64,000 bases of DNA from Embleya scabrispora DSM 41855 (GTDB taxonomy: Bacteria > Actinomycetota > Actinomycetes > Streptomycetales > Streptomycetaceae). The stretch spans positions 397 to 64,396 of the forward strand of contig NZ_KB889680.1 in assembly GCF_000372745.1 (NCBI RefSeq). Direction: 5' to 3'. A program made the translations under genes and the position numbers. The notes beneath the pieces were generated by a model. That model ran no database searches. It was given only the letters and a program-made list of their open reading frames with translations, and had not been told where the DNA came from. Shown here one piece after another: positions 45,381-64,000 of the stretch. Positions within the stretch are counted from its first letter, which is position 1; the number at the start of each line of letters is the position of its first letter.

Positions 45381-45911
45381 GTGGAAGTCAAGGTTTTACG
45401 GTGGCCATCCGAGGCGGAAAAGCGCGCGATGTGCAGGTCGAGGGGATTGCCCTGCCTGCTGGTCCTGGAGGGTCATGGGGTGTCGGTGCCCACGGGACTG
45501 AACGTCCTGGAGGACTGGGTGAGGCCACCGATCAGCCGGGAGGACTTCGGGGCGCGCCGTGCCGCACTCGCGGCCAGGGCCCAGGCGGGCGCACTACCCT
45601 GCATCGACCGTGAGGGCGTGCTGCGCTTCGGCGGACGCAGACTGTCGTTGTCGCCGGCGGAGGCGGATCTGATGCGCGTTCTGGTGGAGTCGTTCCAGGA
45701 GGTCGTGTCTCGGGAAAGCCTGGTCCGCCGGGTATGGCCGGGCGACTGTGCGCAGCGGCGCAACGCCTTGGATCTGCGCATACTGCGACTGCGCCGACGC
45801 ATCGGCTCCCTGCACTTGTCCATCCGCACGGCCTGGGGACGCGGGTATCTCCTCGACATCCACGACCCGCGGGAAGGCGACCTCGTCTGGGCGGGCGCCG
45901 ACGGGCACTGA
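45381..45911 (+). CDS. Stand-alone winged-helix (OmpR/PhoB-type) regulator with TTA codon
   Basis: A 176-aa putative cluster regulator. Residues of about 78-160 form a trans_reg_C winged helix: LRFGGRRLSLSPAEADLMRV, VSRESLVRRVWPGD and the wing LDLRILRLRRRIGSLHLSIR, then TAWGRGYLL. The N-terminal 75 residues are not a receiver domain (no phospho-Asp pattern) and I do not recognise them. The GTG at 45381 is the first start; an ATG at 45429 is the alternative. With the GTG start, codon 6 is TTA (45396-45398), which in Streptomyces makes translation depend on the bldA tRNA. It sits at the edge of the NRPS genes and converges on them. Confidence 0.75.
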   Translation: MEVKVLRWPSEAEKRAMCRSRGLPCLLVLEGHGVSVPTGLNVLEDWVRPPISREDFGARRAALAARAQAGALPCIDREGVLRFGGRRLSLSPAEADLMRVLVESFQEVVSRESLVRRVWPGDCAQRRNALDLRILRLRRRIGSLHLSIRTAWGRGYLLDIHDPREGDLVWAGADGH

Positions 45912-45962
45912 CGACCCACCACGCATCGCGCGCATCGGTAGGACGTGTACCCGCTCGGCCGC

Positions 45963-47333
45963 TCAGCCGGTGGCCCGGGACAGCGCCGCCAGTCGGGCGT
46001 GCAGCATCCCGGTCAACTCCGTAGCGGCCTCGCGGGACACGTCCGCCGGTCGATAGGCCAGGGCACCCGCCGGCCCGCGACCCGGCCGGATGCCCAACTC
46101 CAGGCTCAAGGACGTCTTCGCGTAGCCGAAATCCACGTCCTCGACGCCGAGACAACCCGGCAGGGACGCCGTCCCGTCCTCCTCGTCCAGGGTCAGCCGC
46201 ACCCGGATGTCCTGGTCCAGGGTCGCGTCGGCACCGGTGAGGGCGGCCAGGACGCGCTCGAAGGGCGCGTCACCGTCGCCCAACGCCGCCGTCAGCCCGT
46301 CCCGGGCCCGCCGGATCGACTCGACGCCCCCCGCCACCGATCGCGCCGGGACCCGGACGACCAGCGTGTTGGCCAAGTCCGCCAACACGCCGCCCAGTTC
46401 CGGTCGGTGGCGACCCGAGGTGCAACACCCCACCAGGGTCTCCGGGCGGTCGTGAAACTCGGCCACCACCGAGCCCCAGGCCGCCAACAACACGGCGAAC
46501 AGGCTCGATCCGGTCGACCGCGCCAGGCGGTCGAGTCCGCGGCCGGTCGCACCGTCGATCCGCACCGGTATCCGCGCCCCCGCCCGGTCCCCCGAGTCGG
46601 GCAGATCGAGCGGTACGGATCCCGCCAAGCGAGCGGTGCTGCGGTCGAGTTGCTGCCGGATCACCCCCGAGACCAGGCTGTGCCGCTGCCAGTGGGCCAC
46701 GTCGCGCGGCCGCAACCGGCCGGACACCGGCACCCCGTACAACGCCGGCAGCAGCACCGTACGCAGCCCGTACCGATCACACGCGATGTCGTGCGCCACC
46801 ACCGTCAGCAACACCGCCGCCGGGCGCGCGTCCAGCACCCGCACCCGCACCGGCGGCCGATCCAGCCGGAACGGCGATCGCCCGTCCCGCAGGGCCAGTT
46901 GCCCGGCCGCCCGGAAGGCGTGCGCCGGATCCGGCGAGGCCGCGACGACCCGCTCCACCGGTATGTCGTCGGCCTCGTGGACGCGCACCCGCACGCCGGC
47001 CGACCCGGCCGCGACGTAGGAGCCGCGCAGGGTCTCGTAGGACTCGATCGCCCGACGCACGGCCCGCATCACCTGCTCGGGCGCGCGGTCCGGCGGAAAG
47101 CCGCACACCAGGCCGACGTGATGGAAGTCGCCGTCGTCGCCGTCGCGATGGGCCCGCCACAACGACTCCTGCTTCACCGTGACCTCGGCCGGCTCCGCCT
47201 CGACCCGCTCGGGGCCGCCGTCCAGGTGGTGCAGGAGCCCCTGTTCGGCCAGGCGCGCGGTCAACAGTTCACGCTTGGCCGGCGACAGCGCCGCCATCCG
47301 CGCGCGCAGGTCCGCGCCGGTGTCCGCGCTCAC
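45963..47333 (-). CDS. Stand-alone condensation-like protein with altered active site
   Basis: A 456-aa NRPS condensation-superfamily protein, last in the minus-strand operon. The N-terminal helix SPAKRELLTARLAEQGL is the short segment often placed before C domains. The two-lobed C fold follows, with the second-lobe signature SLFAVLLAAWGSVVAEFHDR. In place of HHxxxDG it has HDIACDR (VVAHDIACDRYG), so the second, catalytic His is Asp. Peptide-bond formation is doubtful; a structural, epimerisation-like or other acyl-transfer role is possible. Its GTG start overlaps the stop of the upstream C-A-T gene. Confidence 0.8.
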   Translation of the reverse strand: MSADTGADLRARMAALSPAKRELLTARLAEQGLLHHLDGGPERVEAEPAEVTVKQESLWRAHRDGDDGDFHHVGLVCGFPPDRAPEQVMRAVRRAIESYETLRGSYVAAGSAGVRVRVHEADDIPVERVVAASPDPAHAFRAAGQLALRDGRSPFRLDRPPVRVRVLDARPAAVLLTVVAHDIACDRYGLRTVLLPALYGVPVSGRLRPRDVAHWQRHSLVSGVIRQQLDRSTARLAGSVPLDLPDSGDRAGARIPVRIDGATGRGLDRLARSTGSSLFAVLLAAWGSVVAEFHDRPETLVGCCTSGRHRPELGGVLADLANTLVVRVPARSVAGGVESIRRARDGLTAALGDGDAPFERVLAALTGADATLDQDIRVRLTLDEEDGTASLPGCLGVEDVDFGYAKTSLSLELGIRPGRGPAGALAYRPADVSREAATELTGMLHARLAALSRATG

Positions 47334-50300
47334 GGGCCCGTCTCCCGCACCTCGTCCTCCGCCGGACCCGCGATCTCGGCGACCAGCGCGGCCACGCTCC
47401 GCTCACCCTCGCGGTATCGGTCGATGGCGGCGGCCAGGTCCGCGACGGCGCTGGACTCCAGCCACGTGCGCAGCGGCAGGCGAACCCCGAACCGGCTGCG
47501 GACGGCGGCGATCACCCGAGTCGCGAGCAGCGAATTGCCGCCCACGGCGAAGAAGTCGTCGAGCACGCCGACGCTCGGCACGCGCAATACCTCCTGCCAG
47601 ATCCGCGCGACCTCCCGCTCGGTGTCGGTGCGCGGCGCCACACCGGCGGTCAACCGCTCGTCGATGCTGCGCTGCGGGGCGGGCAACGCCTTACGGTCGA
47701 TCTTGCCGGTGTGCCCGAGTGGGAACGCGGAGAGCAGCGAGATCGAGGTCGGCACCATGTAGCCGGGCATCCGTGCGGCGAGGAAGGCGCGCAGTTCGGC
47801 CACGTCCAGGTCGTCCGAACGTGGCACGACGTAGCCGGCGAGACTGCGTTCGCTGCCGTCGCCCCACGGGACGACCAGGCACTCGCGGACCCCGGGGTGT
47901 TCGGCGATCTCCGCCTCCACCTCGTGCGGTTCGATCCGGATGCCGCGCACCTTCACCTGATGGTCGCTGCGGCCCAGGAAGTGCAGGTTGCCGTCCGGCA
48001 ACAGGGTCGCCACGTCTCCCGTGCGATACAGCCTTGCCCCGCCGCCCGCGAACGGGTCGGGCAGGAACCGGTCGGCGGTCAGGCCCGGACGGCCGTGGTA
48101 GCCGCGCGTGACGCTCTCGCCACCGATGTACACCTCCCCGCGCGCGCCGAACGGCACCGGCTCCAGATGCCGGTCCAACACGTACGTCGTCTCGTTGTTC
48201 ATCGGCCGCCCCGACCGCACGAACGGCAGCCCGCTCTTTCGGGGCACCACGTGGAAGGTGGAGTCGATGGAGACCTCGGTGACGCCGTACAGGTTGATCA
48301 GGTCCGCGTCCAGCGTCGCGTGGAATCGCTCGGCGAGCGTGGGCGGGATCGGCTCACCGCTGGCGAAGACGAAACGCAGCGACGTGCACGCGGCGGCGTC
48401 CTCGGCGGTGAGGAACGTCTGGAGCATCGCCGGGACGAAGTGCAGGGTGGCGACGCGTTCGGTGCGGACCAACTCGGTGAAGCGGTTGAGGTCCAAATGC
48501 AGCCTCGGTGGTGCGAGCACGGCCCGCGCACCGACGAACAGCGGCCAGAACAGTTCCCATACGGCGGCGTCGAAGCTGTACGCGGTCCACTGCAACGCGG
48601 CCTCGTCCGGCTCGAGTTCGTACAGTCGACTGATCCACCGGACGAAGTTGACCGCGCCGCCGTGCTGGACGAGTACGCCCTTGGGACGACCGGTGGAGCC
48701 CGAGGTGTACATCACGTAGGCGAGGTTGTCCGGAGCCACCCCCGTGTGCGGTCGATCGCACGGGTGATGGCCCCACGCCTGCGGCTCGTCCAGGACGACC
48801 GGGTTGCGCGCCCGAGGCAACAACCCGAGCAGGTGCCGCTGCACGAGCAGCACCGGACAGTCCAGGTCCTCGGCCAGGTAGGTCAGCCGGTCCGGCGGGA
48901 ACGAGGGGTCCAGCGGGGCGTAGGCGCCACCCGCCTTGAGGATCGCCAGGATGGCCACGTTGAGCTCGAACCCGGGCTCGGCGCACAGGCCCACGATGGT
49001 GTCGGGCCGGACGCCGAGGTCGATCAGGTGGTGCGCCAGGCGGTTCGCCGCGCGATCCGCCTCGGCGTAGCTCATCGACTCGCCCTCGTGCACCAGGGCG
49101 GGGCGGTCCGGAGTGCGGTCCACCTGGTCCTCGACGTGCCGGTGCAGGCACCTGTCGCGCGGATGGTCCACCGCCGTGTCGTTGTGTGCGTTCAGTGCCG
49201 CCCACTCGGTCGCGTCGACCAGGGGGAGCCGGCTCATCGGGGTGTCGGGCGCGGCGGCGGCTCCGGTGAGCACGGCCGCGGTACAGCGCAGCAGCCGCTC
49301 CACCCGCTCGGCGTCGGCGACCTCCGGGGCGTGCCGGGCCACCAGGGTCAGCGTCGCACCGTCGTCCTCGACGCCGACGACGAGCGCCGGCCCGGCCGGC
49401 TCCGGTGCCGGCACGGACGCGTCGTCGCGCGCGTCGACCACCGAGTCGTACAGCGCCGGGCCGCGTTCCGCGCCGGAGAGTTCGTGCAACACCGCGCCCG
49501 GGAGCTGCCCGTGGGCGCGGGCCCGTTCCATCCACTCCGACAACCGGGCGATCCACGCCGCGGCGGGCGTGTCGTCCAGCCGTACGGGAGTGGGCAGGGT
49601 GCGTTCGAAGGGGCTCAGGCACGCGCGCAGGGCGGGGGGCCGGGTGTCGACCGACAAGCCGATCACGGCGAGTGGTTCGCCGCGGAACCTGGCCACCACC
49701 GAGGCCCACGCGGCGGCGACCACCCGCAGCTTGCACGAGTGCGCGGTCGCGGCCAGTGCCCGGACCGCGACGGTCGCGGGAGCGGACAGCGCGACCCGCA
49801 CCGTGCCGGGCTCGCGCCCGCGGCGGGCGGCGGGTTCGGGAAACAGCGGCGTGATGCCGTCGACGTCGGCGAGCGAGCACCGCCAGAACTCGGTCGCCTC
49901 GGCCTGCTCCGCCGGGTCCGGACGGAGCAGGAGGTCGTTCGGCCGATCCACCGGTTGCTCGCCGCGCACCAGGGCCGCCAGGTCGCTCAGGAGCAGGTGT
50001 GCGCCCAACTCGTCGACCAGCAGCGGATGGTAGGTCAGTACCGCCTCACGGGTCGCGTCCGACCACGAGAGTCGGCCGAGCGCACCGGCCGGCCCCGGTG
50101 GCAACCCGCGCCGGGGCTGCTCGTCGGCGGCACGGTCGTGCCCCGCCGGGTCGCCGGCCCGGTCGTTTGCCGCCGGGTCGTCGGCCCGCACGAACGGCGG
50201 CGCGATGCCCGTCCGGACGAGCGCGGGCTGTGCCTGCGACCAGTCGACAGCGATCGCCAACTCCGGCCGCAAGGCCATGAGTTCGAGCCAGGCCCGGTGC

Positions 50301-50461
50301 ACGTCGGCGGCCGCCGCGTCGGCCAGGGTGAGGTGGGCCCGGCGGTCGGGCCCGCGCGCGGAGTCGTCCAGGGCCGCCGCGACGAGCACGTCCTGCCGGG
50401 CGGGGGAGAGGGGCACGCGGTCGGGAACGGAGCGGCCGTCTGCGGGTGTTACCACTGCCAC
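47330..50461 (-). CDS. NRPS module C-A-T, Ser-like adenylation code
   Basis: A 1043-aa synthetase. C-like domain at about 30-440, with HPLLVDE where HHxxxDG is expected, so the catalytic His is Pro. A domain at about 485-930 with YVMYTSGSTGRPKGVLVQH, SFDAAVWELFW, NLYGVTEVSID, YRTGDVATLL, DHQVKVRGIRIEPHE and HTGKIDRKAL. By eye its ten-residue code is D-A-W-H-F-S-L-I-D-K, nearest to serine codes (DVWHFSLVDK type). T domain with Ser977 (GGNSLL). The GTG at 50461 follows GAGG and lies seven bases after the upstream stop. This is the one unmistakably functional amino-acid-activating domain of the minus-strand operon. Confidence 0.88.
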   Translation of the reverse strand: MAVVTPADGRSVPDRVPLSPARQDVLVAAALDDSARGPDRRAHLTLADAAAADVHRAWLELMALRPELAIAVDWSQAQPALVRTGIAPPFVRADDPAANDRAGDPAGHDRAADEQPRRGLPPGPAGALGRLSWSDATREAVLTYHPLLVDELGAHLLLSDLAALVRGEQPVDRPNDLLLRPDPAEQAEATEFWRCSLADVDGITPLFPEPAARRGREPGTVRVALSAPATVAVRALAATAHSCKLRVVAAAWASVVARFRGEPLAVIGLSVDTRPPALRACLSPFERTLPTPVRLDDTPAAAWIARLSEWMERARAHGQLPGAVLHELSGAERGPALYDSVVDARDDASVPAPEPAGPALVVGVEDDGATLTLVARHAPEVADAERVERLLRCTAAVLTGAAAAPDTPMSRLPLVDATEWAALNAHNDTAVDHPRDRCLHRHVEDQVDRTPDRPALVHEGESMSYAEADRAANRLAHHLIDLGVRPDTIVGLCAEPGFELNVAILAILKAGGAYAPLDPSFPPDRLTYLAEDLDCPVLLVQRHLLGLLPRARNPVVLDEPQAWGHHPCDRPHTGVAPDNLAYVMYTSGSTGRPKGVLVQHGGAVNFVRWISRLYELEPDEAALQWTAYSFDAAVWELFWPLFVGARAVLAPPRLHLDLNRFTELVRTERVATLHFVPAMLQTFLTAEDAAACTSLRFVFASGEPIPPTLAERFHATLDADLINLYGVTEVSIDSTFHVVPRKSGLPFVRSGRPMNNETTYVLDRHLEPVPFGARGEVYIGGESVTRGYHGRPGLTADRFLPDPFAGGGARLYRTGDVATLLPDGNLHFLGRSDHQVKVRGIRIEPHEVEAEIAEHPGVRECLVVPWGDGSERSLAGYVVPRSDDLDVAELRAFLAARMPGYMVPTSISLLSAFPLGHTGKIDRKALPAPQRSIDERLTAGVAPRTDTEREVARIWQEVLRVPSVGVLDDFFAVGGNSLLATRVIAAVRSRFGVRLPLRTWLESSAVADLAAAIDRYREGERSVAALVAEIAGPAEDEVRETGP

Positions 50462-50468
50462 GGTGACC

Positions 50469-53400
50469 TCACGAGAGTCGATTCGGGTCGATCGGATCCG
50501 TCTTCGCCGTGCCGTGCGGTGCCTGCTCCGACGGATGTCGCGCTGCGGGGCCGGACGGGTGCGGCGGTACGGGCCCCGGTGCGTCGTCGGGGGCCTCCTC
50601 GACGGTGGTGAGCAGTGCGTCGATGGTGTCCAGGTCCCGGGACTCGACGGCACGCACACGCTCGATCGACTCGGCGAGCCGGCGCAGCGTGGGGGCCGCG
50701 AACACGTCGGCCGGCGCGACATCGACCCCGTGGGTCGCGCGCACCCGGGCCAGGACCTGAATCAACTGGAGGGAGGTGCCGCCGAGTCCGAAGAAGTTGT
50801 CGTCGCGGCCCACCCGGGGTACACCCAGGACCGGGACCAGGACGTCCGCCGCCAGGGCCCGCTCCGTGTCGGTCGCGGGCGGCGTGTACGGGCGGGAGTC
50901 GAACCGGGCGCCGCGTTCGGCGGCGGCCCGGGCGGCGTGGTCGAGTTCGGCGCCGGCGGGTATCCCCGGTGCACCGTCGTGGACGCCGTCGCCCTCGACC
51001 ACGAGTACACATTCGGGTACGGCGACGGCCGGCAGGTCGTGACGCAACAGGTCGACCAGGTCCTCCGGTGACGGGTCCCGCGCGGCGGACGTGTGGATCG
51101 CCGCGTACGGACGCTCGGCCCGGCCCCAGTCGAGCGGCTGGACACCGGCCGCGGCCGGCCGGCCACCGCGTCGCGCGAGCGCTGCCGCGAGATCCTCGAC
51201 CAGGATCGAGCGCCCACGCGCACACACCCGGTCCTCGGGCAGACGGACCAGGCGCAGCGTGCCGCCGGCGCCGACCCGGACCAGCGCGCGCGTGTTCACC
51301 ACCCGGCCGCCGGTGCCGGCCGGATCGGGACGGAAGTCGTCGGCGCAGGCGGCCGGTTCGTCGAGGTAGGCCGCGCCGGGATCCACTCGGGCCCAGAGTG
51401 TCCCGGTGCCGCCGACGGGCACGGCCATCAGGTCGTCGTTGAGCACGTGGTACGGCGCCGGGCAGGTCGGGCCGTGCGGGTCCGGGCCGGTCAGCACGGC
51501 GTCCGGGGCCGCCGCGGCCCACCAGCGGCGCCGCGGTGCGGCATCGTCCCGCTCGCCCGGCGACGCGGGCTCGGTGAGCCGGCGATACGAGGCGCGCAGG
51601 TCCAACAGGTGCACCGGGACGGACTCGGCGAACGCGCCGGCCAGTTCCGCCACCGTGGCCCCGGCCTCGGCCAGTACGTCGAAGCGCGCGTCGACCGTCC
51701 CGTGGGTGGGCGGCAGCAGCGTGGCGCCGGAGCAGGCGGCGGCGAGCACGCACACGGCCGCGTCCTCGCCGCCCCAGTCGAAGTCGGGTGCGAACACGTC
51801 CGAGGCGGACAGCCCTGAAGCCTCGGCGTGCCGAACCGCGGCGCGCAGCAGTGCCGATGAGGGGATCCGCAGCACGCGTGGCGACGGATACGCCCGCAGG
51901 CCGACCAGGAGTGCGCCCGGGGTGTCCTCGGGCCGGCGGGCGGAGGCCGTGGGTGGCTTTCGGTCGGCGGTCGCGATCTCGGTGATCGTGCCGTCCGGGA
52001 ACAGCTCGAACCGGGCATGGGCCGCGCCCGCCACCCGATCCGACCACGTCGGCGGGTCCTCGGCGCAGCGCACCAGCACGTCCGCTCCGAAGCCGAGCGC
52101 GGCGGGCAGTGCGACGGCGCAGGCGGCGGAGTCGTCGGCGTGCAGCACGACCGCGTCACCGACACGTACGCCGGCCCCGGCCAGCGCCTCCCGGAACCCG
52201 CGCACGGCCGCCGCGACCCGCGCGCCCGTCAGAGGGCCGCCCGGCGCACGGATCACCACGTCGTCCGGGGCTCGGCCGGCCCAGCCGGCGAAGACGTCGA
52301 CACGGCCGAAGGCGCCTTCCCGGGCGGTCGCGGTCGCGGGTGTGACGTCAGCGCGCGGTGGGGGCTCGGCGCCCGTTGCCGGATCCGCCACAGCGCCCGG
52401 GGCGGGTCGCGTGACGACTCCCGCGTCCGGATCCGCTACGGCGTGCGATGCCGGTTCCGCCACGGCTCCCGCCGTCGGATCCGCCGTGTCGCCAGGTGCC
52501 GGTTCCGCCACGGCTCCCGCCGTCGGTTCCGCCGTGCCGGCCGCTGCCGGCGGCGCCACAGCCCCCGCGGCCCGATCCGCCTCGCCTCCCGGAGCCGGCT
52601 CCCACGTGGTGCTCGCCGCCGGGTCCAGGAAGTGCGCGACCAGTGCCGTGAGGGCGTCGACCGTGGACCGGTCGAAGAGATCGGGATCGTATTCGGCGAG
52701 CAGTTCGGCCGCCCCGCTCGCATCGCCGGCCAGCACCAGTTCGAGGTCGTACATCGGCACGGGCGAGGGCATCAGCCGGATCCGGGCCTGACCGCCGCCC
52801 AGCCGCGGTGCCGGCAGGGACACGGCGTCCAGGCCCACCGGGAGCAGCGGTTCCGCCCCCCATGTGGGCGGTGGCGCGTCGGCGAGCGCGGCGATCGGCA
52901 ACGGCTCGCGTACGGACGCGGCAACCGCCTCCCGGGCGCGAGTGGTCAGCGAGGCCGCGTCCACGCCACCGACGATCGGCAACGCCAGTACGCCGGCCGT
53001 GCCGAGCCGCCCCACCAGGTTCGCGGTCTGCGGCGTGTGCCGGCCGGGATCGTCCAGGCCCAGCCGCAGCGGCGACGCCGCGCCGAACCTGCGCAGGGCC
53101 GCCCCCACCGCGGCCACCAGCGCGACCGGCGGGTCGGCGGGCGCGGGTGCCGGCCGGCGCAGCGCGGCACCGGCCGCGGACGGCGGCCCGGCGACGGGCG
53201 ACCGGTCGTAGGGCAGCAGCGAGGGCTGCGCCGGTCCCAGCCGGGCGGCGGCCGTGGGGAGCAGGTCGGCCAGGCGCTCCGGGGTGAATCGACGACGATG
53301 CCAGTACGCGTGGTCCGCGACGTCGAACCCGCCCGTCACCGGCACCGCACCGTCCTCGTAGGCGCGCGCGACGGCGGCCAGGAGCAGCCCCACGGAGGTG

Positions 53401-55291: not shown

Positions 55292-56343
55292 CCGGGCACC
55301 GCCGATCCGAGCAGCGTGCCCGCTGCCCGGGCGGCGGCGGCCACGGCCCGTTGCACGCCCGCGTCCGACACGTCCCGGTGGGTGACGAACCTGACCACGC
55401 CCGGGATCACCTCCGTGACCAGGACACCGTGTTCGCCCAGCGCTGCCACGAAGGGGGCAGCCGTGTCGCCGATCGGCAGCGTCACGATGTTGGTGCGCGG
55501 CGGATCCGGCGCCGCCCACTCGGGCAGCACCTCCCGTAATCCGCCCGCGAGTTCGGCCGCGCGCCGGTGATCGGCGGCGAGTTCGTCGATCCCGTCCAGC
55601 GCGATCGAGCCGGCCGCGGCCATGATGCCGACCTGCCGCAATGTCGCGCCGAGGCGACGCCGGACGTCGGCCGCGCGCACCCGCACCTCGCCCGTGCAGC
55701 ACAACAGCGAACCCATCGGCGCGCCCAGGCCCTTGTACAGGGAGAACGTCAGGGTGTCGCACAGTGCTCCGACGGCGGCGGGCGCATACCCGCCCGCCAG
55801 GCACGCGTTGAACAGCCGGGCGCCGTCGCAGTGCACCGGGACCCCGGCCGCGCGGCAGGCCGTCGAGACCTCGCGCAGGCGATCCAGGTCCCATACCGAA
55901 CCACCGCTCGCGCTGTGCGTGTTCTCCACCGCGACCATGCCGGTGCGCGGGGCCCGCCAATCGTGGCGATCGAGCAATTCGGCGATGTGCTCGACCCCGA
56001 ACATCCCCCGGTGCCCCCGGATCGGGCCGAGCTGGACGCCGGCGAGGCCGGAGGTGGAGTGCGACTCCCAGCGGACCAGGTCGGAGTCCGCCTCCGCGAG
56101 CACCTCGTGGCCGGGCGGGACCAGCGCCATCACCGCCGCCAGATTGGCCATCGTGCCGCCCACCACGAACAGCGCGTCCTCGGTGCCGATCAGCCGCGCG
56201 GCCCGCTCCTCCAGGGCACGTACGGTGGGATCCTCGCCGTAGAAGTCGTCGCCGACCCGGGCCGTGGCCATGGCCTCGCGCATTCGCGCGGTCGGTAGGG
56301 TCACCGTGTCCGAGCGCAGATCCACGGGCGCGGAATTGCTCAC
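55288..56343 (-). CDS. PLP-dependent threonine-aldolase/beta-eliminating lyase-like enzyme
   Basis: A 351-aa fold-type I PLP enzyme. The GTG at 56343 follows GAGGAGG. Features are DLRSDTVTLPTARMREAM, VGDDFYGEDPTVRALEERAA, VENTHSASGGSVWDLDRLRE, HCDGARLFNACLAGG and the PLP lysine Lys204 in FSLYKGLGAPMGS. This is the low-specificity threonine aldolase (GLY1) family, which cleaves or forms beta-hydroxy amino acids with glycine. Fungal alanine racemases of peptide clusters also belong here, so racemisation is a second possibility. As the first gene of the NRPS operon it probably supplies a precursor. It has a TTA codon (55539-55537, residue 269). Confidence 0.85.
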   Translation of the reverse strand: MSNSAPVDLRSDTVTLPTARMREAMATARVGDDFYGEDPTVRALEERAARLIGTEDALFVVGGTMANLAAVMALVPPGHEVLAEADSDLVRWESHSTSGLAGVQLGPIRGHRGMFGVEHIAELLDRHDWRAPRTGMVAVENTHSASGGSVWDLDRLREVSTACRAAGVPVHCDGARLFNACLAGGYAPAAVGALCDTLTFSLYKGLGAPMGSLLCCTGEVRVRAADVRRRLGATLRQVGIMAAAGSIALDGIDELAADHRRAAELAGGLREVLPEWAAPDPPRTNIVTLPIGDTAAPFVAALGEHGVLVTEVIPGVVRFVTHRDVSDAGVQRAVAAAARAAGTLLGSAVPG

Positions 56344-56645
56344 CGGAAGCCTCCTCGGGTTGCCCGGGGCGGTCGACACCGTCGCGCGTCACCGCACGAC
56401 GGACACGAGGGCACGCGTCGCCGAACGAGGGCACGCGTCGCCCCGAACCGGTATCGTGCGCCGAAATCCGACCCGTTGCCGATTATCTTTCAAGAACCCG
56501 TCGGTCCTTTCCGGAGTATTTCCCGTGCCCTTCCGGGATCCGGACCCGATGGGTAACTCTGGGCGCGGTGGAATTCGCTCCGGAGTCGATACGCCGGGCC
56601 CGACGACCACCCGGCGGCAGCTTCCGGACAACAAAGGAGACTTCG
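56344..56645. promoter_or_regulatory. Divergent promoter region of the two NRPS operons, with 20-bp direct repeat
   Basis: A 302-bp gap between the minus-strand operon (start 56343) and mbtH (56646). ACGAGGGCACGCGTCGCC occurs exactly at 56405-56422 and 56425-56442, a 20-bp period. Direct repeats of about two helical turns are the usual target of OmpR/PhoB-type winged-helix dimers, such as the one encoded at 45381. The DNA to the right (56470-56530) is AT-richer and could hold the rightward promoter. AAAGGAG precedes mbtH. Confidence 0.6.
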
Positions 56646-56852
56646 ATGGAGGAGCAGGCGGACGACCGCGTCTACAACGTCGTGGTGAACGACGAGGACC
56701 AATATTCCATCTGGTTCGCCGATCGTGCGTTGCCGGACGGGTGGCGCGCGGAGGGTACCGGCGGCAGCAGGCAGGAATGCCTCGACCACATCGAACGGGT
56801 GTGGACCGACATGCGACCGCGCAGCGTCCGCGAGCGCCTGGCCGTGGACTGA
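56646..56852 (+). CDS. MbtH-family protein
   Basis: A 68-aa activator that binds adenylation domains of NRPSs and makes them soluble and active. The family signature is present as VVNDEDQYSIWFADRALPDG, W, then GSRQECLDHIERVWTDMRP. The usual Pro after SxW is Phe here (SIWF). AAAGGAG lies eight bases before the ATG. Its stop overlaps the next gene start by one base (TGATG), so it is made together with the A domain it most likely serves. Confidence 0.93.
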   Translation: MEEQADDRVYNVVVNDEDQYSIWFADRALPDGWRAEGTGGSRQECLDHIERVWTDMRPRSVRERLAVD

Positions 56853-59578
56853 TGGGCGAGAGCCCCGCCGACCCGCCGCCGCACGGGGACCGGACCGCGG
56901 ACGACGCTGCGACGGCCCTGCTCGACCTGCCCATGGAGGCGGCCCGGGGCAACGGGCCCGTGCTGCGCACCCGGACGCACGTGGTCGCCATCCCCGACGA
57001 CGGGCGGAGCCGGCGACCGACGCCGGCCGCCGTGCTCGCCGCCTATGTCGCCGTCCTGCAGCGGTACACCGGCGCGCGCGCCCTCGTGCTCGCCGTGGAC
57101 CCGGCGGCGCGGCGGGACGATGTCGGGACGCCGGACGCCGCGGACGAGTCGGACCGCACCGGCACCGGCGGGGTCGTCCATCCCGCCGCCCGCCGGATCC
57201 GGGTGACCTGTGCTCCGCGTGACACCGGCGCCCGACTGGTCGCCGAGGCGGACCGGCGGCTGCGGGAGGCCGGCGGGATCCCCGGATCCGAGCGGCCCGC
57301 GCGGCACTCCGCGGGCTTTCGGGTACGACGGGCGCAGGCCGGTCGCGCCGGGCCGTCCCGGGGAGCCGACGCGGACTCCGGCGCGTTCGGGCCCACTGGG
57401 ACGGGCGCCGCACGCTCCGGCCGACCCGGGCCCGTGCGGACGAGCGACGCCGACGCCGGCGGACCCGGGGCCACCGGAACGAGCGACGCGGATCCCGGCC
57501 GACCCGGGCCCGCGCGGACGAGCGACACGGACCCCGCCCGACCCGGCCCCGCGCGAGGCGCCGCCGAACTGACGCTCACCCTCGTCCGGAACCCGGATCG
57601 CGACGCCGCACACCTGGAGATCACCCACGACGCCGACCTGATCGACGCCGACACCGCCGAACGATTCGGCCGGCACGTACTGCGCATGCTCGACGGCATC
57701 TCCCGCCGCCCCCACACCCCCGTCGCCGACCTGGATCTGCTCGGCCCGGACGATCACGCGCTGCTGCGGGCCTGGGGGGCCACGCCGGACATCCCCGACG
57801 CGCCGCGCCCGCTCGGGCGGCTGCTCGCCGACCGGGCGGCGGCCACGCCCGACGCGGTCGCCCTCGCCTACCGGGACGAGGAGCTGACGTACGGCGAACT
57901 CGACGCGCGCGCGGACGCGTTGGCCCACCGCCTCCTGGCGAGCGGGACCACGATGGGCGCGGTGGTCGGCCTGTGCATGCCCCGCTGCCCCGAACTGGTC
58001 GTGGCGATGCTCGCCGTGCACCGCGCCGGCGCCGCCGCGCTGATGCTCGATCCCAAGGCGCCCGACGCATACCTGGGCCGCTTCGTCGAGCAGGCCGGGG
58101 CGCGGCTCGTGGTCACCACGAACCGGTTCGAGCGCACGCTGCCCCCGGAGGCGCAGGACGTGCCGGTGCTCGCGCCGGCCGGCCGCGTCCCCGGCCCGGC
58201 CGCCCCCGAACGGCCGCTCCCGGAGCCGGGAACGGACGATCCGGCCTTCCTGGTGCAGACCTCCGGGTCCACCGGCACACCCAAGCTGGTCGTGGTCACC
58301 CATCGCGGCGTGGCGCACGCGGCCATGGCGCAGATCCGGGCCCACGGGGTGAGCGCGGGGGAGCGCGGCGGCTGGACGTTTCCGCCGCAGACCAACGTGT
58401 CGGTGAGCGTCGTGGTGTGGGCCCACCTGATCGCCGGCGCGCCCTTGCACATCGCGGCCGACGAGGACCTGTCCACACCGGAACACCTGCGCGACTGGCT
58501 GCTGTCCCGGGGAATCACCCAGGTGTTCGTGGTGGCCCCACTCGCGGAGGCGCTGCTCGGGATCGCCTGGCCCGCTCGCACCCCACTGCGCACCCTGCTC
58601 ACCGGGAGTGACCGGGTGCGCCGCTGGGCCCCGGCGGAACTGCCGTTCGAGGTGGGCAACTGGTACGGCGCCAACGAGGTGAACATCGTCACCTCGCCGC
58701 TGATCCCCCGGGAGCGGCCGATCACCTCGCACACCGCGACCGCGCGCGACCGCACCCTGCCACCGCCGATCGGGCGCCCGTGGCCCGGCGCCCGACTGTA
58801 CGTCCTGGATCGCGACCTGCGGCTCGTCCCGCCCGGCGTGGTCGGCGAACTGGCGGTCTCCGGGCCCGAGCAGGCGCGCGGATACCTGACCGCCCGACAG
58901 ACGGCCGAGCGCTTCGTGCCGGACCCGTTCGCCGACGCGCCCGGCGGTCGGCTCTACCTCACCGGCGACTTGGTCCGCTTCCGCGCGAACGGAGTCCTCG
59001 AACACCGGGGACGGGCGGACCACCAGCTCAAGATCGCGGGCATGCGGGTCGAGGTGGGCGAGGTCGAACAGGCCCTCCTGGCCGCCGAGGGTGTGCGCGC
59101 GGCGGCGGTCGCGGCGCCGGAGGACCCCCGGGGCGTCCGGCGCCTCGTCGCCTACGTGGTGGCATCGGACGGCCTGGACACCCACGCCCTGCGCGGCGAA
59201 CTCGCCCGGGCGTTGCCGGACCACATGGTGCCGCAACTCTTCCTGCGGCTGGCCGCGTTGCCGCTCAACTCCGGCGACAAGATCGACCGCAACGCCCTGC
59301 CGACGCCCGACTGGGGGCCCGCGACCGATGCGCGCCCGGACGCGGGCGAGGAGCGCACGGCGGTGGAGGAGGCTCTGGTGCGGGTGTGGGAGGAGATCCT
59401 GTACCGCGAACACCTGGGCGTGCACGACGACTTCTTCCTGCTCGGCGGCGAGTCGTTGAGCGCCGGGCGCGCGGTACGGCTGATCACCGAGCGGCTCGGC
59501 GTGGTGCTCAAGGTCCGCGCGCTGATGCTCAATCCGACACCGGCCGAACTGGCCCGCGAACTCGCCCACCCGGCCTGA
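56852..59578 (+). CDS. NRPS protein (half C)-A-T with unusual adenylation code
   Basis: A 908-aa synthetase. Residues 1-310 resemble only the C-terminal lobe of a C domain (PAAVLAAYVAVLQRYTGARA, then DADLIDADTAERFGRHVLRM); the lobe with HHxxxDG is absent, and a 65-residue repeat (171-235) interrupts it. The A domain (about 320-830) has FLVQTSGSTGTPKLVVVTH, NWYGANEVNIV, LYLTGDLVRF, DHQLKIAGMRVEVGE and GDKIDRNALP. By eye its code is V-S-V-V-L-T-W-I-V-K, lacking the Asp that binds the alpha-amino group. T domain with Ser868 (GGESLS). MbtH is encoded directly before it. Confidence 0.85.
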   Translation: MGESPADPPPHGDRTADDAATALLDLPMEAARGNGPVLRTRTHVVAIPDDGRSRRPTPAAVLAAYVAVLQRYTGARALVLAVDPAARRDDVGTPDAADESDRTGTGGVVHPAARRIRVTCAPRDTGARLVAEADRRLREAGGIPGSERPARHSAGFRVRRAQAGRAGPSRGADADSGAFGPTGTGAARSGRPGPVRTSDADAGGPGATGTSDADPGRPGPARTSDTDPARPGPARGAAELTLTLVRNPDRDAAHLEITHDADLIDADTAERFGRHVLRMLDGISRRPHTPVADLDLLGPDDHALLRAWGATPDIPDAPRPLGRLLADRAAATPDAVALAYRDEELTYGELDARADALAHRLLASGTTMGAVVGLCMPRCPELVVAMLAVHRAGAAALMLDPKAPDAYLGRFVEQAGARLVVTTNRFERTLPPEAQDVPVLAPAGRVPGPAAPERPLPEPGTDDPAFLVQTSGSTGTPKLVVVTHRGVAHAAMAQIRAHGVSAGERGGWTFPPQTNVSVSVVVWAHLIAGAPLHIAADEDLSTPEHLRDWLLSRGITQVFVVAPLAEALLGIAWPARTPLRTLLTGSDRVRRWAPAELPFEVGNWYGANEVNIVTSPLIPRERPITSHTATARDRTLPPPIGRPWPGARLYVLDRDLRLVPPGVVGELAVSGPEQARGYLTARQTAERFVPDPFADAPGGRLYLTGDLVRFRANGVLEHRGRADHQLKIAGMRVEVGEVEQALLAAEGVRAAAVAAPEDPRGVRRLVAYVVASDGLDTHALRGELARALPDHMVPQLFLRLAALPLNSGDKIDRNALPTPDWGPATDARPDAGEERTAVEEALVRVWEEILYREHLGVHDDFFLLGGESLSAGRAVRLITERLGVVLKVRALMLNPTPAELARELAHPA
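57362..57556 (+). repeat. 39-bp (13-residue) tandem repeat, five units, inside the NRPS
   Basis: Residues 171-235 of the 908-aa protein are five 13-residue units: GADADSGAFGPTG, TGAARSGRPGPVR, TSDADAGGPGATG, TSDADPGRPGPAR and TSDTDPARPGPAR. At the DNA level the last three are closest (ACGAGCGACGC...). It is an in-frame minisatellite that lengthens a linker. Confidence 0.88.
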
Positions 59579-59640
59579 CCGGTCCCCGGGCGCCTCGGCT
59601 CGGGGCGGCCGGCGACGGGACCCGCGACAGCGGGACGCGA

Positions 59641-59691
59641 GACGAGGGGCGCTGCCCGACCGGCGTCTCCGGTCGTGCGCCGCCCCTCGTC
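59641..59691. terminator. Double hairpin between convergent NRPS and thioesterase genes
   Basis: GACGAGGGGCG (59641-59651) pairs with CGCCCCTCGTC (59681-59691). Inside it CGACCGG (59657-59663) pairs with CCGGTCG (59669-59675). All pairs are perfect. The two genes end at 59578 and 59710, so it can stop transcription from both sides. Confidence 0.85.
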
Positions 59692-59709
59692 CGAGTCGGA
59701 TTCGGCCGG

Positions 59710-60483
59710 TCAGTCGGTCGCCCCGGCGCGGGCGAGATCGCGCGCCACGACCTCCACGAGAGCCTTGGGGCAGCGCAGGAAATCCAGGTGCCTGCCCGCC
59801 AGCGCCACCACGCGCACGTCCGCGCACTCCGCCCAGCCCGGCGCCACCGTCTCCGGCGGCACCACATCGTCCTGGGACCACGAGATCACCGTCACCGGGC
59901 TGGGCAGCCGGCGGGTGACGTCGTAGCGGTAGGGCCGTTGCAGCACCAGGTCCTCGCGCAGGACCCGGGCGCCCAGTTCGGCCATCTCGTCCGGTGGTTC
60001 GCCCTGGCCGGTCTGGCGATACCGCTGCCGTACCTCCGCCGCGAGGTCGGCGGTGTCCAGGTCGACGAAGTTCAGCGCGCCGTACAGTCCCAGATGCGGC
60101 GCACCCCAACTCGACGCGAACAGCCGCTCGGGCAGCGGCAGTCCCCGGTCCTCCAGGGTCAGGATCGTCTCCAGCGCGAACGGCACCGCGCCGCAATGCC
60201 CGATGAAGGCGAACGGCCGGTCGAGCAGCGGCGCGAGCTGCGCGACGAGGTCCGCGGCGAAGCCCGCGTGATCGGCCGGCGCGCTCTCGCGAAAGCGATT
60301 CTCCCGGCCGGGCGGCTGGAGCGCGCACACGGCGATGCCGTCGGGCAGCGTCTGCGGCCACTGCCGGTACGAGGAGGCGCCCACTCCCGCGTACGGGAAG
60401 CAGAACAACAGTGATCCGCTGTCGTCCGGCGGCTTTCGAAGCAACCATTTCCCGGTCTGTACAGGTGTATTCACCCCGGACAC
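59710..60483 (-). CDS. Type II thioesterase with Cys in place of the nucleophilic Ser
   Basis: A 257-aa alpha/beta hydrolase of the NRPS/PKS type II thioesterase family, which clears mis-loaded carrier domains. Features are LFCFPYAGVGASSYRQWPQT, LQPPGRENRFRE, the elbow FIGHCGAVPFALE, ASSWGAPHLG, and the C-terminal Asp/His in SQDDVVPPE and AGRHLDFL. The elbow is normally GHSMGA; here it is GHCGA, with Cys97 at the nucleophile position and one residue fewer. A Cys nucleophile changes reactivity and favours acyl transfer or lactone/lactam chemistry. The start GTG at 60483 is not strongly supported. Confidence 0.85.
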   Translation of the reverse strand: MSGVNTPVQTGKWLLRKPPDDSGSLLFCFPYAGVGASSYRQWPQTLPDGIAVCALQPPGRENRFRESAPADHAGFAADLVAQLAPLLDRPFAFIGHCGAVPFALETILTLEDRGLPLPERLFASSWGAPHLGLYGALNFVDLDTADLAAEVRQRYRQTGQGEPPDEMAELGARVLREDLVLQRPYRYDVTRRLPSPVTVISWSQDDVVPPETVAPGWAECADVRVVALAGRHLDFLRCPKALVEVVARDLARAGATD

Positions 60484-60680
60484 GGTAGTCGCGGAAGCAC
60501 CGGTCGAAAAGGCGTCGGCGGTTTATCGAAAGACTTCGGAAAGAAGTTCGTGAACGCGTCCCGGTGATTCCTTTCGCGGTCGAGAAAGAATCATTGCCGA
60601 GGGCCGGGAGCCGATATACGTTCCGGACTGTGCGTGCGCCGCACCGAGTGCGCCTGGACGCAGGACGGGAGAACTCCGCG
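60484..60680. promoter_or_regulatory. Divergent promoter region thioesterase / P450
   Basis: A 197-bp region, AT-richer than its surroundings (GGTTTATCGAAAGACTTCGG and AAAGAATCATTGCC). It must drive the thioesterase leftward and the P450-NRPS pair rightward. I cannot place -35/-10 elements with certainty. The 18-bp repeat found at 56405 is not present here. Confidence 0.45.
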
Positions 60681-61976
60681 ATGCTCATGACCGGCCCCGG
60701 GATCGACGAGCGAGTGCCGCTCGACTCGATCGATCTCTACGATCCACGCCGATTCCAGACCCATCCGCAACACGTCGCCCTGGCGACGCTGCGCGAGGTG
60801 GCGCCCGTATGGGCCCAGCACACCCCCGACGGTGCCCGCTTCTGGTCCGTCACGCGCTACGACGACGTCGTGCGCGTCCTCAAGGACGCGCGCCGGTACA
60901 GCTCCGAACACGGCACGATCCTCGACGTCACCGGCGGGGACAGCGCCGGGGGCAAGACCATCAACCTGATGGACCGTCCGCGGCACACGGCGGTGCGCAC
61001 ACCCGCGTTCCACACCATGACCACGAACATCCTCGCCCAGCGCACGGAGAACATCCGCGCGCACGTGTTACGGATCATCGAGCCGCTGACGGCGGGTGGC
61101 GAGCACGACTTCGCCCGGTCGATGTTCGATCTGCCGATGGCCGCCGTCGGCGAGATCCTGGGCATCCCCCGCCGGTACTGGGCCGACATCCCGCGCTGGA
61201 CCATGGCGGGAGTCGCCCCCGACGACCCGGAGTTCGCCAAGGGACAGACCGCCCAGACGCTGCGCGAGGCGCACCACGACCTGTTCGCCATGTTCAGCGA
61301 GCTGATCGCCGACCGCCGCCGCGAACCCCGAGACGACCTGGTCTCGCGGCTCACGCGGGTGGAGCTCGACGGCGCGCCGATGGAAGACAGCCTGGTCCTG
61401 CTCAACTGCTACAGCTTCGTCATGGGCGCCACCACCACGACACCGCACACCGCCACGCACATGCTGCTGGCGCTGCTGGAGCGCCCCGAGGTCTGGCGCC
61501 GCGTCCAGGAGAATCCCGAGCTGGCGGCGGCGGCCGTACAGGAGTCGCTGCGCTGGTCCACCCCGACCAACCACCTGATGCGCCGGACCCGCACCGAGGT
61601 GGAGATCGCCGGCACCAGGATCGGCGCGGGGGAACTGGTGGTGGCCTGGGTGGCCTCCGCGAACCGCGACGATCGGGTGTTCACCGACCCGTTCTCGTTC
61701 CTGATCGACCGCACGCCCAACCCGCACATCGCCTTCGGCATCGGCCCGCACTACTGCGTCGGCGGGCCGGCCGCCAGGGTGGCGCTCACCGTGCTGCTGG
61801 AGGAACTGGTCACCCGATTCGACCGGTTCGAACTCGCCGGGGAGCCGACCCATCTGCGCTCGAACTTCATCAACGGTCTCACCCGGCTGCCGATCACGGC
61901 CCACCCGCGCACCGGTGCGGCCAAGGCGGCGAGGGCGGCGAGGGCGGCGAGGGCCAAGGAGGTGACCCGGTCGTGA
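60681..61976 (+). CDS. Cytochrome P450
   Basis: A 431-aa bacterial P450. The haem-binding loop is FGIGPHYCVGGPAAR with Cys359, the ExxR motif is ESLRWSTPTNHLMRR, and the I-helix is FVMGATTTTPHTATHM, where the usual acid before Thr is replaced by Thr. NLMDRPRHTAVRTPAFHTM is the conserved C-helix region. The ATG at 60681 has GGGAGA nine bases upstream. In NRPS clusters such enzymes often hydroxylate the beta-carbon of a carrier-bound amino acid; that is inference. Leu130 is encoded by TTA (61068-61070), a bldA signal. The stop overlaps the next NRPS start. The tail AARAARAARAKE comes from a 9-bp repeat. Confidence 0.92.
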   Translation: MLMTGPGIDERVPLDSIDLYDPRRFQTHPQHVALATLREVAPVWAQHTPDGARFWSVTRYDDVVRVLKDARRYSSEHGTILDVTGGDSAGGKTINLMDRPRHTAVRTPAFHTMTTNILAQRTENIRAHVLRIIEPLTAGGEHDFARSMFDLPMAAVGEILGIPRRYWADIPRWTMAGVAPDDPEFAKGQTAQTLREAHHDLFAMFSELIADRRREPRDDLVSRLTRVELDGAPMEDSLVLLNCYSFVMGATTTTPHTATHMLLALLERPEVWRRVQENPELAAAAVQESLRWSTPTNHLMRRTRTEVEIAGTRIGAGELVVAWVASANRDDRVFTDPFSFLIDRTPNPHIAFGIGPHYCVGGPAARVALTVLLEELVTRFDRFELAGEPTHLRSNFINGLTRLPITAHPRTGAAKAARAARAARAKEVTRS

Positions 61977-64000
61977 CGGCCACCCCGACCGAAGCGCTCC
62001 CGGCGACACCGGTACAGGAACAGATGTGGCTGGTCGACGAGATGGACCGCGACGCGGCCGTGTACAACGAACATCTGGTCTTCGAACTGGTCGGGCCGCT
62101 GTCCGTGCCCGCCCTCGAAGCCGGATTCGACCTGCTGGTCGAGCGGCACACGGCGCTGCGCACGATCCTGCCCGTGGACAAGGGTCGGCTGCGCCAATCC
62201 GTGGTGGCCCCGTGGTCGGTGCGACTGGACCCGCCGCTCGACTTCACCGGTCGCCGCGAGGACGCGTTGCACTGGGCCCGCACACTGGTGGAGGAGCCGT
62301 ACAGCACGACGGTGACCCCGCCGGTGCGATTCGGCCTGGCCCGGCTCGGCCCACGTGAGCACCTGCTCGTGCTCGGCTTCCACCACGAGGTCATGGACGC
62401 CGGCGCCGCCGCGCACCTGCTCGACGAACTCGCCGTGGCCTACACCGCCCACCGAGCCGGTCGCCGGGCGGAGCCGGCGCCGGTGACCGCCGACTACCGC
62501 GACTTCACCCGGTGGCACTGCGAACTCCTGGAAACCGGCGCACTGGACGCCGAACGGAGCGCATGGGTGGCCGAGTTGGCCGACGCCCCGCACGTGTTGC
62601 GGATGCCGGAGGACGCGCCGAGGCCGGCGACCAAGCGCAACCGCGGTGCCCTGGCGATCCATCCCTTCCCGGCCGGCACGGTGCCCCGGCTGCGCCGGTT
62701 CGCCGCCGGCCATCGGGTCACCCCGTTCCACGCGCTGCTCGCGGCGTTCACGACCGTGCTGCACCGACACACGCGTGCCGAGGACATGGTGCTCGGGATC
62801 TGCGGGGACGGCCGACCGGAGCAGTACCCCGACGTGGTCGGCCCGCTGTCCTGCATGATCCCGGTGCGCATGCGGGCACCGGGCGATCTGCCGTTCGCCG
62901 AACTGCTGGCCGCCGCTCGTGACGCCACGCTCACCGCGTACGACCGGCAGTTCATCCCCTTCCGACAGGTCGTGCGGGAGAGCCTGGTCAGCCGGGACCC
63001 CGGCCACTCGCCGCTGGTCCAGGTGGTCTTCAACGCGCCACCGCTGCACTTTCGCCCGGACACCTTCCCGGACCTGACCATGAGCGTCGTACATGTGCCG
63101 CGCGGGCGTTGCCGTTTCGATCTGCTGTTCAACCTCGAATGGCACGGCGACGACATCGTCGCCACCGTCGAGTACGACACCGCGATCTTCGCGGCGGCCA
63201 CCGTCAAGCGGCTCGTCGACCACTTCGCGGCAGCCGTGGAGTCCGCGATTGCCGACCCCTACGCAACCCTGGACGCCCTCGAACTCGGGCCTCCGGCAGT
63301 CGACTTCGCGGCCCCGAGACGCGCGGCGGACGACGACGACATCCGCCACACCCTCCAGACGCCCGGTGGACCGGTCCTCCTGGGTTCGGATCCGGCCCGG
63401 CCGAGCGACGACCGAGGTGAGGTGTCGGCCGTACCCGGCCTCGCCGAGGTCAGGGAGCCCACCGGGGCGCTCGCGCCCTGCGGCCTGGAAGGTGTGCTGC
63501 ACATCGACGGGACCCCGGTGCCCGACCCGCCGGCCGGCGGCGCGCTGCGGGTACGCCGGGTCGAGGACGGCCGCCTGTTGTGGCGGATCGTGGGCCCGTC
63601 CCGGGACGAGGAACCGACGGAGGGCCGGCGACCCCACCCCGCCGGGGCGAGCCGGCGGCGCGCCCCGGCCGTGGAGCGGCGGGTCGTCGAACTGTGCCGT
63701 GAACTCCTGGAGGACGACTCGATCACCGGCGCGGACGACTTCTTCGCGGTGGGCGGCCACTCGATGATCGCCTCGCGACTGGCGCAGACCCTCTCCGACG
63801 AGTTCGGGGCGCACATCCCGCTGCTCTTCGTCTTCGAGAACCCCGAACTGCACGAGTTCGCCGCCGCGATCGCCGCCCGCCACCCGGCGGTGGCCGACGC
63901 GCTCGCCGAGCTGGAGACGCTCACCGACGACGAGATCGGGGCACTCGCCGGGTCCGAACAGCCCGACGAACCCGCGCCGGACGACCCGCCCGTGCCGAGC
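61973..64000 (+). CDS. NRPS protein C-(A remnant)-T, cut by the window end
   Basis: The GTG at 61973 overlaps the P450 stop (GTGA); the frame is open to the last base, 676 codons. The C domain (1-430) starts ALPATPVQEQMWLVDEMDRD and has an intact catalytic motif, His137-His138 and Asp142 (FHHEVMDAGAAA, with Ala for the final Gly). Between residues of about 440 and 560, where an A domain of 500 residues would be expected, there are only about 120 residues. Part of this (LAPCGLEGVLHIDG, then LRVRRVEDGRLLWRI) resembles the end of an A domain. A carrier domain follows with Ser597 (DDFFAVGGHSMIASRLAQTL). The carrier is presumably loaded in trans. Confidence 0.83.
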   Translation, partial: MTATPTEALPATPVQEQMWLVDEMDRDAAVYNEHLVFELVGPLSVPALEAGFDLLVERHTALRTILPVDKGRLRQSVVAPWSVRLDPPLDFTGRREDALHWARTLVEEPYSTTVTPPVRFGLARLGPREHLLVLGFHHEVMDAGAAAHLLDELAVAYTAHRAGRRAEPAPVTADYRDFTRWHCELLETGALDAERSAWVAELADAPHVLRMPEDAPRPATKRNRGALAIHPFPAGTVPRLRRFAAGHRVTPFHALLAAFTTVLHRHTRAEDMVLGICGDGRPEQYPDVVGPLSCMIPVRMRAPGDLPFAELLAAARDATLTAYDRQFIPFRQVVRESLVSRDPGHSPLVQVVFNAPPLHFRPDTFPDLTMSVVHVPRGRCRFDLLFNLEWHGDDIVATVEYDTAIFAAATVKRLVDHFAAAVESAIADPYATLDALELGPPAVDFAAPRRAADDDDIRHTLQTPGGPVLLGSDPARPSDDRGEVSAVPGLAEVREPTGALAPCGLEGVLHIDGTPVPDPPAGGALRVRRVEDGRLLWRIVGPSRDEEPTEGRRPHPAGASRRRAPAVERRVVELCRELLEDDSITGADDFFAVGGHSMIASRLAQTLSDEFGAHIPLLFVFENPELHEFAAAIAARHPAVADALAELETLTDDEIGALAGSEQPDEPAPDDPPVPS

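Follow-up and report, generated by a model that had tools for sequence, protein, structure and literature searches.

We analyzed a nonribosomal peptide synthetase (NRPS) gene cluster that begins in a 64,000-nucleotide stretch of the Embleya scabrispora DSM 41855 genome (hereafter the window; positions 397–64396 of contig C119, NZ_KB889680.1). The genome comprises 11.39 Mb in 190 contigs, and the contig, of 108,133 bases, was analyzed from C119:40000 through its end. Position 64000 is the edge of the window, not of the cluster, and another 43.7 kb of the contig follow; coordinates above 64000 continue the window numbering along the same contig. Genes were called by GC-frame decoding and open reading frame analysis, with the nearest start codon chosen by hand as the start. 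The GC-frame pattern favored one coding frame per gene, and every gene was open from stop to stop. The genes are as follows (C, condensation; A, adenylation; T, carrier domain).

45381..45911, + strand: g02, 176-aa DNA-binding regulator with OmpR-type C-terminal domain, left end of the cluster (PF00486, 58.8 bits)
45963..47333, − strand: g03, free-standing C-like protein with HHxxxDG changed to HDxxxDR (PF00668, 53.3 bits)
47330..50461, − strand: g04, C-like (HPxxxD)-A-T protein (AMP-binding 286.9 bits, PP-binding 48.9 bits)
50469..53888, − strand: g05, dead C-like region (ARxxxD), dead A remnant and intact T domain (DNFFxLGGTS)
53885..55291, − strand: g06, free-standing canonical C domain (HHLAFDG; PF00668, 254.8 bits)
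55288..56343, − strand: g07, pyridoxal phosphate (PLP)-dependent aldolase, GntG/threonine-aldolase family (PF01212, 262.6 bits; NF041359, 287.1, cut-off 230)
56646..56852, + strand: g08, MbtH-like protein (PF03621, 75.2 bits)
56852..59578, + strand: g09, stand-alone A-T protein with about 320 N-terminal residues without Pfam match, containing C-domain fragments
59710..60444, − strand: g10, type II thioesterase-like protein with nucleophile motif GHCGA (PF00975, 64.1 bits)
60564..61976, + strand: g11, P450, 48% identical to g25 (PF00067, 89.6 bits)
61973..64000, continuing to 65335 (L010:2370-5732), + strand: g12, C-T-C protein (Pfam: Condensation twice, PP-binding) in which only a stub of about 120 aa is left of the A domain
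65337–66350: g13, GHMP kinase
66334–67749: g14, free-standing thioester reductase
67746–68504: g15, methyltransferase
68576–71686: g16, A-T-C-like protein
71908–73077: g17, AlkZ-like protein (PF06224, 195.6 bits)
73276–74817 (L010:13673-15214): g18, TAP-like alpha/beta hydrolase
74977–76194: g19, P450
76162–76944: g20, tryptophan 2,3-dioxygenase
76941–78194: g21, aminotransferase
78303–79271: g22, methyltransferase
79300–79998: g23, short-chain dehydrogenase/reductase (SDR)
80393–82225: g24, A-T protein
82225–83475: g25, P450
83472–84677: g26, PALP-fold enzyme
84674–85906: g27, ATP-grasp ligase
85903–87570: g28, argininosuccinate-lyase homologue
87567–88334: g29, thioesterase
88394–90318: g30 and g31, ABC transporter pair (DrrA1-3_C, 29.4 bits)

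These 30 genes (g02–g31) span about 45 kb (45381–90318; C119:45777–90714) and apparently form one intact, antibiotic-type NRPS cluster of dissociated design. Within the window, the four carrier domains counted by the first-pass annotation were located by Pfam in g04, g05, g09 and g12, its two A domains with all core motifs are those of g04 and g09, and its two C domains with HHxxxD are g06 and the first C domain of g12; the second (HHLVMDY) lies just past the edge. The MbtH-like protein, P450, PLP enzyme, thioesterase and regulator that it listed are likewise all present there. Nineteen genes (g13–g31) lie wholly beyond the window; they encode, among others, the further A-T proteins g16 and g24, another thioesterase, a reductase and the enzymes of two putative precursor pathways. 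In the whole cluster we count six carriers, four intact A domains (g04, g09, g16, g24) and three canonical C domains (HHLAFDG in g06, HHEVMDA and HHLVMDY in g12), a number consistent with the short product proposed earlier. Four further C-like regions occur without HHxxxD, namely in g03 (HDxxxD), g04 (HPxxxD), g05 (ARxxxD) and g16 (HDxxxD).

A search of 41 genomes with g12 (own genome included, E ≤ 1e-150) recovered the cluster in three: our own, G003 from the same genus and G024 from another genus of the same family. The same three were found among 100 genomes (own included) searched with g03 (E ≤ 1e-60). At C22:107286–152045, G024 carries 30 of 30 genes in identical order and on identical strands at 47–84% identity (69% for g06, 66% for g18), and orthologues of the regulator g02 are in the same place in G003 (94% identical) and G024 (81%). 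For G003, a draft of 1650 contigs, at least 22 of the 30 genes are present on three contigs (g02–g05, g09–g16, g19–g28), whose ends truncate g05, g09, g16 and g28. When proteins g01–g37 were compared with 78.5 kb of G024, only g02–g31 were the best match anywhere in it, which suggests the cluster ends, the left-side comparison taking in g01 alone.

Many domains lack catalytic motifs, which speaks for a cluster that is decaying, non-functional or an assembly artefact. We nevertheless regard this as highly improbable: gene order and altered motifs are shared with a second genus, and ratios of nonsynonymous to synonymous substitution (dN/dS; simple pairwise Nei-Gojobori estimates) between our genome and G003 are 0.14–0.34 across 17 of the 22 genes, including g03 (0.25) and g05 (0.28; C-terminal part, 415 codons). 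Together with the coding-frame pattern, synteny, conserved motifs and dN/dS led us to reject both decay and frameshift. Decay, which the first-pass annotation had named as an outcome that would overturn its reading, is thus contradicted. Its picture of mostly degenerate modules is misleading, since most of the genes lie outside the window and the alterations are conserved across genera.

Resolved by domain, dN/dS is mostly lowest in intact domains and highest in the A stub of g12. Against G003, the values are 0.35, 0.16 and 0.21 for the C-like, A and T domains of g04, 0.20, 0.19 and 0.67 for the first C domain, second C domain and A stub of g12, and 0.31 and 0.18 for the A remnant and T domain of g05. 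Against G024, intact or canonical domains show 0.24 (g04 A), 0.25 (g16 A), 0.30 (g06) and 0.30 (g12, first C), and altered ones 0.40 (g03), 0.48 (g16 C-like), 0.51 (g04 C-like), 0.46 (g05 A remnant) and 0.57 (g05 C-like), with the g12 stub at 0.81. Hence, constraint on the altered regions, although weaker, is real, and the A stub of g12 is closest to a free linker.

The nature of the altered domains was further inspected by profile comparison. The A remnant of g05 gives an AMP-binding match of only 23 bits, below the cut-off of 29.9, and its A3 stretch is unrecognisable. The A3 region is lost in both our genome and G024 (the G003 sequence begins only at residue 687, so A3 is uncovered there), and the T core LGGTS is intact in all three species. 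Pfam Condensation matches are above cut-off in g03 and g16, sub-threshold in g05 (19.5 bits) and absent in g04. To check the C-like labels, we built a profile from four canonical C domains: it scored 78.9 bits in g03, 52.0 in g16, 48.3 in g05 and 30.7 in g04, with five control stretches at ≤ −1.0; the N-terminus of g09 reached 27.7 bits in fragments and the g12 stub −3.8 bits. Aligned with canonical C domains, the HDxxxDR motif of g03 lies within invariant residues (‘AHDIACDR’ in three species), HPxxxD of g04 is kept in three species and HDxxxD of g16 in both species readable. An assignment of g03 as X domain was not supported, as its profile matches Txo2/Txo1 best and the presumed X domain 6m7l_B comes only seventh among 28. 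Structures predicted with AlphaFold from three-row alignments for g03 and the g05 A-T part had a mean predicted local distance difference test score of 48.9 and 45.8, respectively, and were set aside. The motif HHxxxDxxSW, presumably that of epimerisation domains, was not seen in the seven C-type regions of the cluster; among the Pfam results, no separate entry stands for such domains.

How, then, could carriers without a working A domain be charged? The proteins g12 and g05 keep a carrier without a working A domain, and the separate A-T protein g09 and the thioesterase-like g10 are encoded, together with P450 g11, just upstream of the C-T-C protein g12, an arrangement shared by G024 and G003. 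These features support the loading in trans put forward in the first-pass annotation, and the best reading, by analogy, is a dissociated NRPS in which g09 and g10 would feed g12. The layout corresponds to that of legonmycin, with a separate A-T protein, a C-T-C protein without A domain and an adjoining type II thioesterase gene. LgnA, a type II thioesterase, was shown to move the aminoacyl group from the A-T protein LgnB to the C-T-C of LgnD, and a similar transfer was proposed for WS9326A (WS22-23/WS5-20/module 7) (PMC8748450). In contrast to both, an A stub remains here and a second A-less carrier (g05) is present; moreover, module 7 of WS9326A continues as C-T-C-A-T, whereas g12 stops after its second C domain. 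In cystobactamid biosynthesis (CysH-CysB-CysK), a module of the assembly line whose A domain is dead is fed by the shuttle CysB, which draws on a stand-alone module (PMC7966384); CysB is homologous to SyrC/CmaE, whereas g10 is nearest to RifR-type thioesterases among solved structures. Friulimicin-type clusters encode trans-acting A-T-Te proteins (PMC9113097).

Alternatively, the A-less carriers of g05 and g12 may be loaded directly in trans by the A domain of another module, with g10 merely editing or hydrolysing. There is precedent in the A-less module CmnI, for which trans loading by CmnA-A1 was shown (PMC12400406), and among PDB structures the C-like domain of g16 matches that of CmnI (9uay) best. 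In addition, the best match of g10 among PDB structures is RifR, named as a hydrolytic type II thioesterase (PMC8748450). However, the adjacency of g09, g10 and g12 and the C-T-C layout suit the shuttle precedents better, so that we consider direct loading a minority possibility, if a serious one.

The substrates of the four intact A domains (g04, g09, g16, g24) were addressed through their binding-pocket codes, read by eye, positional and partly ambiguous, with a one-residue gap required for g09. No match to the code strings was found in the literature, and a substrate was named from the code only for g04, whose pocket reads as Ser-like. The pocket of g09 (‘TNVSV[ST]VVVWA’ in three species) apparently has no Asp to bind the alpha-amine, so the unit activated by g09 is possibly an aryl acid.

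A second group of genes resembles known pathways to a tryptophan-derived chromophore. For the 3-hydroxyquinaldic acid of thiocoraline and sandramycin, roles are described for TioK (A-T), TioT (MbtH), TioI (P450), TioQ (thioesterase), TioF (dioxygenase), TioG (aminotransferase) and TioH (oxidoreductase), with TioJ activating the acid (PMC9962454, PMC4052310); echinomycin has the same first steps, tested in vitro (PMC3578932). Family-level candidates were found for seven of the eight sandramycin roles (g24, g08, g25, g29, g20, g21 and g23), and the core set of A-T didomain, MbtH, P450, type II thioesterase, tryptophan 2,3-dioxygenase and aminotransferase is complete at this level; roles were assigned from families and context. 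The P450 g25 matches 4l0e and 3mgx, which we take to be the carrier-acting hydroxylases P450sky and OxyD, with two reconstructed CYP125 ancestors scoring higher. Histidines presumed to be active-site residues are retained in g20, judged by eye, and the genome holds four dioxygenase genes. Unlike the Tio-type set, the cluster has an extra methyltransferase (g22). The cluster lacks the features examined for the quinomycin/bisintercalator NRPS family: those multimodular synthetases have an integrated methyltransferase and thioesterase, whereas no Pfam match to either was obtained in g04, g05, g09, g12, g16 or g24.

A further set (g13, g26, g27, g28) is likely a pathway to 2,3-diaminobutyrate, judged from gene families. 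Such a pathway would need a kinase, presumably acting on threonine, a PLP-dependent beta-replacement enzyme and a lyase that releases fumarate; here, a kinase, a beta-replacement enzyme and an argininosuccinate-lyase homologue occur together as g13, g26 and g28. Homologues of all four genes adjoin each other in Azospirillum, Azorhizobium, Pseudorhizobium and Neorhizobium. A g28 scan of genome contigs gave at least five loci (L017–L021), all Azospirillum or rhizobial among the matches listed, of which four have all four genes at 38–57% identity; in the fifth (L019) the g26 homologue is only 27% identical and the set adjoins an NRPS. The proteins g27 and g28 match the two halves of PRK02186 (ATP-grasp/argininosuccinate-lyase), each below the whole-model cut-off. 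For g13, only the GHMP N-terminal domain was detected, with no NCBIfam model over cut-off and no meaningful structure match. 2,3-Diaminobutyrate is a unit of the uridyl peptides (PMC4858918, PMC4572928), and pacidamycin, sansanmycin and mureidomycin also share a highly dissociated NRPS (PMC4858918) with the cluster. However, uridyl peptide antibiotics have nucleoside-forming genes, for which no candidate was seen among the Pfam matches of g02–g31; Pac sequences were not part of this comparison. Release of the chain is likely reductive, as g14 scores 293.7 bits as thioester reductase (cut-off 213.35).

Self-protection is the candidate role of g17 and of the transporter pair g30–g31, which suggests a DNA-directed product as plausible. 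g17 matched the AlkZ structure 5uuj at 6.4e-12, and it lies inside the cluster, like the AlkZ-family self-resistance proteins of azinomycin and hedamycin. AlkZ-family members are enriched in biosynthetic clusters and, in tested cases, protect against genotoxic products (PMC9040887).

Altogether, we are moderately confident in the following explanation of the cluster as a 30-gene dissociated NRPS. The A-T protein g24 would take up tryptophan for beta-hydroxylation by P450 g25 and release by thioesterase g29. Dioxygenase g20 would then open the freed unit, and aminotransferase g21, together with SDR g23 and methyltransferase g22, would cyclise it to a methylated chromophore of the 3-hydroxyquinaldic-acid type. 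Kinase g13, the SbnA-like g26, ATP-grasp g27 and lyase g28 would convert threonine to 2,3-diaminobutyrate. The protein g09 would activate its unit, possibly the chromophore acid itself, which g10 would carry to the A-less carrier of g12, and the carrier of g05 would likewise be loaded in trans. The three canonical C domains (g06, two in g12) would join about four units before the free-standing reductase g14 releases the chain as aldehyde or alcohol, with the altered C-like domains of g03, g04 and g16 serving for docking or gating instead of bond formation and with AlkZ-family g17 and the DrrA-like pair g30–g31 providing self-protection. Accessory roles can be envisaged for g18, possibly a peptidase trimming or detoxifying the product, and for g07, which, near P450 g11 and thioesterase g10, could act on a beta-hydroxy amino acid after its release, splitting it to give an aldehyde. 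The product is probably a short peptide with a flat tryptophan-derived ring, and such a ring peptide may act on DNA.

Several observations weigh against this explanation. On the synthetase side, dN/dS of the canonical second C domain of g12 (0.45, own vs G024) is as high as that of altered domains. The nucleophile Cys of g10 (GHCGA), which aligns with the RifR Ser and is conserved in three species, cannot be taken as diagnostic of a shuttle. Some shuttles use Cys. As a control, we examined the 30 PF00975 matches of our own genome: of the 27 over cut-off, 16, including g10 and g29, were scored by a two-sequence profile and 11 remained unscored; two of the 16 gave no motif, and GHC occurred in g10 and four others (L061, L064, L067, L068). 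As LgnA has Ser77 as its nucleophile (PMC8748450), the Cys of g10 is weak evidence. In the diaminobutyrate set, g26 falls below the SbnA cut-off (199.7 vs 349.95). For g17, the catalytic position reads QNT in both our genome and G024, in contrast to QAQ in five of the seven other own-genome members aligned, which makes glycosylase activity doubtful and departs from the Q-x-Q of the family and its (Q/H)-aliphatic-Q catalytic motif; L035 reads HAT at this position and the alignment of L037 was not useful. Moreover, eight AlkZ-family genes over the Pfam cut-off are present in our genome (L031–L038), and together with QNT this weakens g17 as proof of a DNA-alkylating product. As a side observation, HATD of L035 resembles the AZL2 motif.

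The chromophore assignment meets two further difficulties. No separate TioJ-like ligase is present among the 30 genes, SDR g23 being present; g09 might serve as ligase. In addition, two genomes of another family (G031, G034) hold homologues of g20 (33 and 36%), g21 (46%), g22 (51%) and, further off, g23 (53%), and within the 80 kb compared from each, g24, g25 and g29 are nowhere the best match; the g20–g23 set may therefore do something else. One such function is offered by streptonigrin biosynthesis, where StnR is an aminotransferase and StnQ1 an indolepyruvate C-methyltransferase (PMC4742848), so that g21 and g22 could make beta-methyl-tryptophan or beta-methyl-kynurenine instead of quinaldic acid. 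We regard this as rather unlikely, because the beta-hydroxylation set g24, g25 and g29 is present and matches the thiocoraline/sandramycin roles, and no cupin match (Pfam) was obtained in any of the 30 proteins. The G031 and G034 loci (L046–L053) represent a similar large cluster, which also contains three places matching P450 g19.

A known product, with the cluster already published or deposited in MIBiG, appears unlikely. Every sub-pathway is already known, but literature searches on combinations of these features, judged by title and abstract start, showed no such cluster among the papers listed. By analogy, its mode of working is like that of dissociated NRPSs already known to be loaded in trans, and for its precursor pathways, too, similar ones have been described. 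Further along the contig, at 93415–107737, a separate cluster comprises a Lys/Orn monooxygenase, ArgJ, an ArgB-like amino-acid kinase and a large NRPS, truncated by the end of the contig after at least 3160 aa; it probably makes a siderophore.

More tentatively, the C-like domains of g03, g04 and g16, which lack the catalytic second His, might represent a C-fold class of its own that forms no bonds but is dedicated to keeping a dissociated NRPS assembled by docking P450s, the shuttle thioesterase or A-less carriers, with the free-standing g03 setting the order of the unlinked line; this idea is doubtful enough that we offer it as a conjecture. An equally bold alternative is that HDxxxD catalyses a different chemistry on the carrier-bound chain. 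A cluster without assigned product is kept in two genera, uniting a dissociated synthetase with an intercalator-type chromophore pathway, a likely route to diaminobutyrate and chain release that is probably reductive. As its proteins are separately expressible, the rules of trans carrier loading and the use of catalytically altered C domains would be directly testable. Should the product be DNA-directed, g17 would represent a member of a DNA-repair family whose active site is unusual.

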